A stretch of 64,000 nt of DNA, from contig JANQWS010000011.1 of NCBI GenBank assembly GCA_030729785.1, forward strand, positions 1 through 64,000, read 5' to 3'. A program made the translations under genes and the position numbers. Positions 36,622 through 64,000 of the stretch are shown here, piece by piece; positions within the stretch are counted from its first letter, which is position 1; every line of letters starts with the position of its first letter. Below the pieces are notes generated by a model that searched no databases, was not told the DNA's origin, and saw only the letters and a list, made by a program, of their open reading frames with translations. The DNA comes from Algoriphagus sp. GTDB lineage: Bacteria > Bacteroidota > Bacteroidia > Cytophagales > Cyclobacteriaceae.

Positions 36622-36647
36622 GATTCTTTGGGTTTATTTCTTTACAT

Positions 36648-36799
36648 GATTATCCGCAATCACACCAGTAGCTTAAAGTCTAGTTGAATTACTGCGGATA
36701 ATCGTCGACAGACGACTGTCCACAGACCACAGCCCACCTAATTGAACTTCAAACCTTATCATTCTTTGGTAACTGGTGACAAAGGTGATAATCAGATTT
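36648..36799 (+). repeat. Dispersed intergenic repeat, copy A
   Basis: A roughly 150-base non-coding element. It opens with GATTATCCGC, which pairs perfectly with GCGGATAATC 46 bases later (36694-36703), followed by a tract of CCACAG-like words and a tail ending in GGTGATAATCAG, whose GATAATC again complements the opening GATTATC. It is nearly colinear with copy B at 50725 and with a decayed copy C at 61050. It lies between the OsmC and sdaAA genes, in the same orientation as the others. Confidence 0.85.
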
Positions 36800-36826
36800 C
36801 TTTAAAAAAAGCAATCTCAATGCAAC

Positions 36827-50651: not shown

Positions 50652-50724
50652 CTATCAACCCGTTCAACTTATACCGATTTTTTCTCGTAAGTAGCCAACA
50701 CCCATTTTTAAGTAAAATCTTTAT

Positions 50725-50880
50725 GATTATCCGCTATCACACCAGGAGCTTGAAGTCTAGTTGAAGTACTGCGGATAATCGTCGATGGGCCACGGCCCAC
50801 AGGCAGACCACGGTGCACAGCTCACCTAAATAGCCTTCAAGCTTTTCTTTGGTTACTGGTGACAAAGCTGATAATCAGAA
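50725..50880 (+). repeat. Dispersed intergenic repeat, copy B
   Basis: About 155 bases, colinear with copy A: GATTATCCGC (50725-50734) pairs with GCGGATAATC (50771-50780), the region between them differs by only four or so bases from copy A, the middle CCACGG/CCACAG tract is more variable, and the tail again ends TACTGGTGACAAAG-TGATAATCAG apart from single changes. It fills most of the 323-base gap between thrC and the debranching enzyme gene. Confidence 0.85.
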
Positions 50881-50974
50881 AATCTTTTATCTGACTATCA
50901 ACTTTTTATTTATTTCGCTTTAATTTTTCTTATCCATCTAATCCCTTATTTTTAGTTTCATTCAATATTCTCTG

Positions 50975-60965: not shown

Positions 60966-61049
60966 GCGTAGTTAGAGATTAGATGGTAAAAGTTAGCAAA
61001 ATCGAACTGCTAGACACAGTAATTCCTGCTTTTTTACTTAAAATTAGTT

Positions 61050-61178
61050 GATCATCCTCAATTTCAGCAGTAGCTTAAAATCTGTTTGAGTTACCTCAAA
61101 AAATCGACGACAGCCCAAAGACCATGGCTCAATAAAATGAACTTCAAAGCGTATTTCTTTTGTAGCCGAGAAAGCAGG
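61050..61178 (+). repeat. Degenerate copy C of the dispersed intergenic repeat
   Basis: A diverged relative of copies A and B: CAGTAGCTTAAAATCT, TTGAGTTAC, AATCGACGACAG and TGAACTTCAAAGC align in order with copy A. The hairpin arms are lost (GATCATCCTC and CTCAAAAAATC), and the tail is not recognisable after about 61178. It lies in the 461-base gap between the Gfo/Idh gene and a sugar dehydrogenase gene; the rest of that gap shows no gene or strong hairpin. Confidence 0.6.
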
Positions 61179-63889: not shown

Positions 63890-64000
63890 GTTTTAATAAA
63901 ACCTACATGTAGGCAACCCTACAATCCGCTTTTTGAGCAGTACGGAAAAATATAGACTTGAAGTTCAAGAAAGTGCCCTGTGAAACTGTGAAATGGTCAA

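Follow-up and report, generated by a model that had tools for sequence, protein, structure and literature searches.

A high-copy intergenic repeat of Algoriphagus that is very probably a non-autonomous transposon with 8-bp target-site duplications

Three similar stretches of about 150 bp lie between genes in the window, the whole 64,000-nucleotide stretch of Algoriphagus DNA that was analysed, and raise the question of what kind of repeat they represent and how it came to occupy such sites. An earlier inspection of the sequence (the original prediction) had taken them as related copies A, B and C of a miniature element, mobile or regulatory, with many copies in the genome. Their relationship is borne out by a common ungapped 80-nt block, in which B is 88% and C 71% identical to A, and by a profile of 57 full-length copies, which returned A at E=1.5e-43, B at E=2.7e-35 and C at E=4.6e-18, the values for A and B being flattered since both were among the copies used to build it. 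With copy A as the sole BLAST query B was recovered at E=5e-33, and the two align with 78% identity across ~150 bp (BLAST). Copy C was matched at E=4e-13 by a sequence model without base pairs (R1), and its match covers HMM positions 2-140 of 151. Judged from these alignments, A and B are full-length copies and C is a decayed one whose right end is missing.

Copies A (36645..36796, + strand, 152 bp) and B (50723..50879, + strand) had been delimited to within a few bases of these corrected boundaries; copy C, which has lost its right end, occupies 61048..61175 (+ strand). One of the long blocks said to be shared by A and B, TACTGCGGATAATCGTCGA, is present in both, but the other, TTACTGGTGACAAAG, is exact in B only, A reading TAACTGGTGACAAAG. 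The genes beside the three copies are unrelated, as had been stated. Copy A has as neighbours a serine dehydratase gene, whose predicted start codon is 23 bp away, and an OsmC gene; B is flanked by genes for threonine synthase and a glycogen debranching enzyme, and C by genes for a GFO/IDH/MocA oxidoreductase (GFO_IDH_MocA) and a glucose/sorbosone dehydrogenase (GSDH). The common orientation of the three is not a property of the element: among 86 sites in the host genome 51 are on the + and 35 on the - strand, and the next full copy, which lies just beyond the window (contig position 64094-64251), has the - orientation. A weak extra match at 63924-64000 (to contig position 64019), found at E=1.7e-5 with an iterated profile and absent with a cleaner profile, precedes that copy.

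The host genome (G000; 2,570,757 bases in 96 contigs, 84% complete) contains many more copies, as predicted. BLAST with copy A gave at least 42 matches (best 40 of 124 candidates scored), and a model of sequence alone (no base pairs), derived from 28 copies, gave at least 153 at E≤1e-3 (best 150 of 1001 candidates scored), a count in which at least seven pairs among the matches listed are two pieces of a single copy. These matches are mostly ~150 bp long, intergenic and on either strand, and the notion that only three copies exist fails. Profile searches found 84 sites in 1.08 Mb of host DNA; the reversed sequence gave none. The 86 distinct sites (E<1e-5) come from 27 contigs or contig parts, chosen mostly for holding copies; 57 of them are full-length, at ~130-190 bp, and pairwise identity of the copies has a median of 70% (range 51-94%). 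Ends within 3 mismatches of TGATTATCCGCNNTNNNNCCAGTA number 146 in the host, with none in a backwards control, and ends within 2 mismatches number 82 in G013 and 64 in G009, again with a control of 0.

The family is widespread in the genus. Copy A has matches (E≤0.001) in 20 of 23 same-genus genomes and in 0 of 14 genomes of other families in the order, and two more, G014 and G019, are recognised by the end pattern, so that 22 of the 23 carry the family by either test; the sole exception, G022, has neither a copy-A match nor the end pattern. An order-wide sample of 148 genomes, searched with stricter filters and few candidates scored per genome, gave matches in 3/4 same-genus genomes and 0/144 others. 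An exact 19-base core occurs in 25 stretches from named genomes, and the element is present in 22 of these, labelled Algoriphagus, Cyclobacteriaceae, Cytophagales or 'Spirosoma fluviale'. The last label is probably wrong, since the flanks of a copy there are 90-95% identical to the host genome. The other three stretches (Rhodobacteraceae, Reyranella and Rhodospirillales) lack the element. No match was obtained at E≤1e-5 in plasmids and phages, and 33 viral contigs with a 15-base core contain the element in no case. So far as the genomes sampled show, the family appears confined to Algoriphagus, not having been found outside the genus. It is one of the most frequent repeats in a common aquatic genus, and it accounts for breaks in short-read assemblies at particular places, several contigs of G013 ending in copies.

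The consensus reads T[A/C]TGATTATCCGCAATCATACCAGTAGCT, a variable loop, TACTGCGGATAATCGTCGACAGACCACGGTC, a variable GACC-rich stretch and CACAGCTCACCTAAATGAACTTCAAACCTTATTTTCTTTGGTTACTGGTGACAAAGCGGATAATCAGA. Both ends carry 13-bp terminal inverted repeats, T[A/C]TGATTATCCGC, with TGATTATCCGC followed inwards by seven less conserved bases and then CCAGTA; the outermost base is T in 46/57 left ends and A in 50/57 right ends. The repeats of copy A are CATGATTATCCGC (36645..36657, +) and GGTGATAATCAGA (36784..36796, +). A third copy of the end, GCGGATAATC, lies inside the element at about position 49-58; it forms a perfect 10-bp inverted pair with GATTATCCGC in the left third of the consensus, and is seen in copy A as GCGGATAATCG (36693..36703, +) and in the alignment of 57 copies. 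The consensus is matched at a mean of 0.85-0.90 at the ends and 0.83-0.84 in the right part, against 0.63 in the loop; the GACC-rich centre varies in length. A 58-bp form (C49:51451-51508) stops at the internal end and is preceded by TTTATAGAA-T and followed by CTTATAGAA, with eight identical bases; this derivative with its own near-perfect duplication suggests that the internal end is usable too. A second 58-base form (C53:33478-33535) has no clear duplication. The right part, in which a peptide is readable in some copies, was considered as coding and rejected on inspection, single-base length differences breaking the frame. As for a built-in promoter, TANNTTTG, which we take to be the Bacteroidota -7 box, occurs in only 2/57 copies forward and 3/57 reverse, flanks included; a promoter of this type is thus not part of the element.

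Target-site duplications were sought by comparing the left flank, ending one base before [A/C]TGATT, with the right flank after GGATAATCAG, in a 9-base register. The flanks agree at eight or more of the nine positions in 17/57 full-length copies of G000, 13/20 of G013 and 10/15 of G009, against chance expectations of 0.79, 0.26 and 0.0, respectively, from mispaired flanks of different copies. In all three genomes the excess of matches is found at positions 1-8, with none at 0 or 9; the duplication is therefore 8 bp, a 9-bp duplication being ruled out by this position-by-position comparison, and the ends gain one base (T on the left, A on the right). The duplications are direct and A+T-rich. 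Copy A has a perfect pair, TTTCTTTA, at 36637..36644 and 36797..36804, its register set from the three genomes. Copy B has nine identical bases, AAAATCTTT, on both sides (50714..50722 on the left; counted from 50879 on the right), with the 8-bp form AAATCTTT at 50715-50722 and 50880..50887; its register is shifted by one base relative to the majority, with the leading T of the end either missing or shared. No duplication is recognisable for copy C, and 40/57 full-length host copies have none at the 8/9 level, a point against transposition, although such copies may be old ones that have decayed.

According to the original prediction, empty orthologous sites would support mobility, and conservation at the same positions in distant relatives, within gene leaders, would speak against it. 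Twelve same-genus genomes have the two flanks of copy A next to each other, and in ten of these (G003, G013, G007, G005, G011, G012, G006, G002, G010 and G004) the site is empty, the flank matches lying 24-73 bp apart compared with 178 in the host. In G001 and G009 the flank matches stop further out, at distances that fit an empty site too. Identity of the flanks in the relatives is 74-92%, and 91-92% in G003, which reads TTTATCTCTTTATAATG at the site, one near-copy of the target. Copy A is thus not conserved in place. Conversely, a copy in G013 (L204:6792-6936) has no counterpart in G000, whose matches to the two flanks directly adjoin each other at the orthologous position. Such differences in insertion site can serve as lineage markers.

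Five sites in G000 are also occupied in a relative, with identities of 0.85-0.93 in the element and 0.76-0.98 in the flanks; old shared copies drift at about the rate of their flanks, and at 4/5 of these sites the central array of G000 exceeds that of the relative by 18-43 bases. At the site of copy B, G003 has a decayed copy that is 66% identical over 134 aligned positions, with flanks at 84-97%, and which, unlike the five shared sites, has diverged faster than its flanks. The copies of a sixth pair (C23:113015 / L204:2708) have opposite orientations and were taken as two separate insertions. The presence of near-identical copies in G013 indicates that the element has been active in recent time.

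The intergenic placement proposed for the family holds: no site of the 86 lies wholly inside an ORF of at least 100 aa, though such ORFs cover 88% of the DNA, and only 2/81 sites overlap an ORF by 20 bases or more. Gaps between tandem genes contain 38 of the sites with two neighbours, convergent gaps 23 and divergent ones 20, the corresponding numbers for all adjacent gene pairs being 556, 143 and 138. The element is on the strand opposite to its tandem neighbours in 25/38 cases and on the same strand in 13/38, which is not convincing as a bias. Both a preference for A+T-rich intergenic DNA and selection against insertion into genes would explain this placement. Copies between convergent genes in G000 (e.g. 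in C23, C32 and C46) often begin 1-8 bases from a stop codon, which may reflect either selection or a choice of terminator-like DNA as target.

The terminal inverted repeats, the 8-bp direct repeats above chance and the empty sites in relatives, all observed directly together with the copy number and the intergenic placement, make it very probable that the repeat is a non-autonomous transposon (MITE) that moves by its ends and by 8-bp staggered joining, with a DDE transposase presumably acting in trans. MITEs are 50 to a few hundred bp long without a transposase gene, and the copies are too short to encode a transposase; T[A/C]TGATTATCCGC is present at both ends, the 8-bp duplication was found in G000, G013 and G009, and the high copy number (153 matches) is accompanied by insertion polymorphism in the form of the empty sites. 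The mobile half of the predicted alternative is thereby upheld by the duplications and vacant sites, and nothing seen supports the regulatory half. The 13-bp ends and the CCAGTA block 7 bp further in are likely to be the binding sites of the transposase. The enzyme would excise or copy the element and join it to A+T-rich intergenic DNA through an 8-bp staggered cut, repair of which would leave an 8-bp direct repeat on either side.

An insertion sequence with the ends of the element was looked for with a 24-base end pattern in the host, G013, G009 and 12 more same-genus genomes, and none was found among the matches listed; in the closed genome of G009 no two ends within 2 mismatches lie at insertion-sequence distance. 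The sole convergent pair, G013:C15:191147-192694, was rejected as a parent, being an IS3-type element (HTH_Tnp_1, rve) nested in a copy. The orfA (136 aa) and orfB (306 aa) of this element (L199:5147-6700) sit inside a repeat copy and are not its parent, so they do not place the repeat in the IS3 family. Two transposase families were tried as partners: DDE_Tnp_1 (PF01609) is present in 13/59 and DDE_Tnp_1_3 (PF13612) in 5/59 same-genus genomes, none of which is G000, G009 or G013. No pair of ends was found at the 37 best-match loci for the two families. Matches to 11 bases of the end (≤2 mismatches) flank some of these genes on either side, and the full 24-base end was detected at ≤4 mismatches at one of the 37 loci (L223, 4 mismatches), without a partner. 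The outer ends of IS10 and IS50 (IS4 family) begin with CTGA, and these elements have A+T-containing termini and make 9-bp duplications. Their termini look similar to the Algoriphagus ends, which is a resemblance only; the duplications differ (9 bp as against 8 bp), and PF01609 is absent from G000, G009 and G013. Other families that make 8-bp duplications are IS256, ISL3, IS66, IS1595 and IS6. The enzyme may have been lost, may be associated with more divergent ends or may be encoded in unassembled DNA. The family poses the question of which transposase moves a recently active element when no same-ended insertion sequence is found.

The repeat is best regarded as a new family within a familiar class of element, the MITEs, and differs from the two most similar described elements. 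Literature on MITEs of Algoriphagus, Cyclobacteriaceae, Cytophagales and Flavobacteri, with subscription papers and ISfinder outside the scope, yielded no description of the family among the matches listed, nor did any match listed for the letters GATTATCCGC describe it. Cardinium also belongs to the order Cytophagales. Its MITECca01 is a ~240 bp element with 169 copies, reported from a single strain, whose genome also contains the parent from which it derives, ISCca4 of the IS982 family (PMC9769881). Like the Algoriphagus repeat it is non-autonomous, of high copy number and mostly intergenic; compared by description only, it differs in having a known parent and in being reported from one strain, the Algoriphagus repeat being genus-wide and its parent not found. 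BrickBuilt of Porphyromonas gingivalis has 19 copies with an internal 23-bp minisatellite, ends of the GAGACCTTTGCA type matched to IS5-family elements, and irregular duplications of 0-5 bp or more in four testable copies (PMC4596501). It is likewise an intergenic MITE of the Bacteroidota whose centre is repetitive and varies in length and whose terminal inverted repeats are short. Its clean 23-bp tandem array and irregular duplications contrast with the GACC-rich centre, the regular 8-bp duplications and the different ends of the Algoriphagus repeat. The accessible text of a review (PMC10969869) leaves the term Bacteroid unmentioned.

Other origins were weighed against the MITE reading. The perfect inverted pair GATTATCCGC/GCGGATAATC, the GTAG beside it (CCAGTAGC) and the two Y1_Tnp genes of the host would fit a repeat of the REP/BIME type mobilised by a Y1 (HUH) transposase, e.g. 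RAYT, and such repeats are also short, palindromic, intergenic and numerous. Y1 transposases act on hairpins and make no target duplication, and the 8-bp duplications in three genomes contradict their involvement. The repeat is moreover unassociated with the two Y1 genes, exact GATTATCC/GGATAATC being absent from both loci (2.4-3.3 kb each) and the gene at L031 having a different flanking palindrome of its own, so that an origin of this kind is highly improbable. We consider it hardly more probable that the copies are remnants of a single insertion sequence that has recently been dying out. Such sequences are the usual source of MITEs and the parent may be extinct here, but 57 copies have both ends, share a length of ~130-190 bp and carry their duplications as units, which implies that the short form itself has moved. 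Chance similarity or an assembly artefact, which the fragmentation of the host assembly (96 contigs) and the several G013 contigs ending exactly in copies might suggest, has a negligible probability given that the reversed-sequence controls are 0 and that the closed genome G009, a single contig, has 64 ends. The Y1_Tnp gene at L031:1201-2020 (G000 contig C27; 153 aa) lies between two palindrome copies, CCATGGTTAAAACCATGGG...GTGAGCCGTCCGC, and resembles a RAYT accompanied by a REP sequence of its own.

A conserved cis-regulatory RNA or leader element recurring beside genes would account for sites that are all intergenic or nearly so, and for a left hairpin that is 88% paired over the 57 copies. 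Compensatory changes, for which the original prediction proposed a test, were not detected over these copies: double changes in the left hairpin number 9, compared with 6-11 when the partner is slid by 1-3 columns, and pairing of the two ends gives 2, compared with 5-15 in the slid controls. Mutual information is found only in the loop, where it reflects subfamilies, with no ladder of pairs. The genes next to A, B and C have nothing in common, the copies lie on both strands and in tandem, convergent and divergent gaps alike, and relatives lack copy A in the orthologous leader. A search of the window against Rfam at the gathering threshold returned one tRNA and nothing else. The drift of the five shared sites at about the rate of their flanks, the lack of compensatory pairing and the finding of 0/86 sites inside an ORF argue against a conserved regulatory RNA, which is accordingly a very remote prospect. 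A regulatory effect of single copies, e.g. of A near the serine dehydratase start, is conceivable.

Roughly one in three of the 86 sites is partial, and several keep the central part without the ends, which simple decay of a MITE does not obviously explain. Partial matches in G000 at C84:2823-2903, C36:9769-9914, C49:38436-38495 and C32:84057-84107 comprise the GACC-rich centre and the TGAACTTCAAACC block without recognisable ends, and in some end-less matches terminator-like palindromes replace the right end. It is conceivable, though unlikely, that the family is a mosaic in which the GACC-rich centre and the CTCA..TAAAATGAACTTCAAACCTTATTTT block form a module joined to several sets of ends and kept by a function. 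The main family would then have the ends T[A/C]TGATTATCCGC and the partial copies other ends or none that is recognisable, the module might, for example, terminate transcription or bind a protein close to gene ends, and the array would grow and shrink at fixed sites. A longer form of 307-308 bp was observed in G016 (L297:687-994 and L298:599-905), in which a further unit, carrying a separate GACATCGGACACCCGACATCCGG array and an outer end of the same type, comes after a normal copy.
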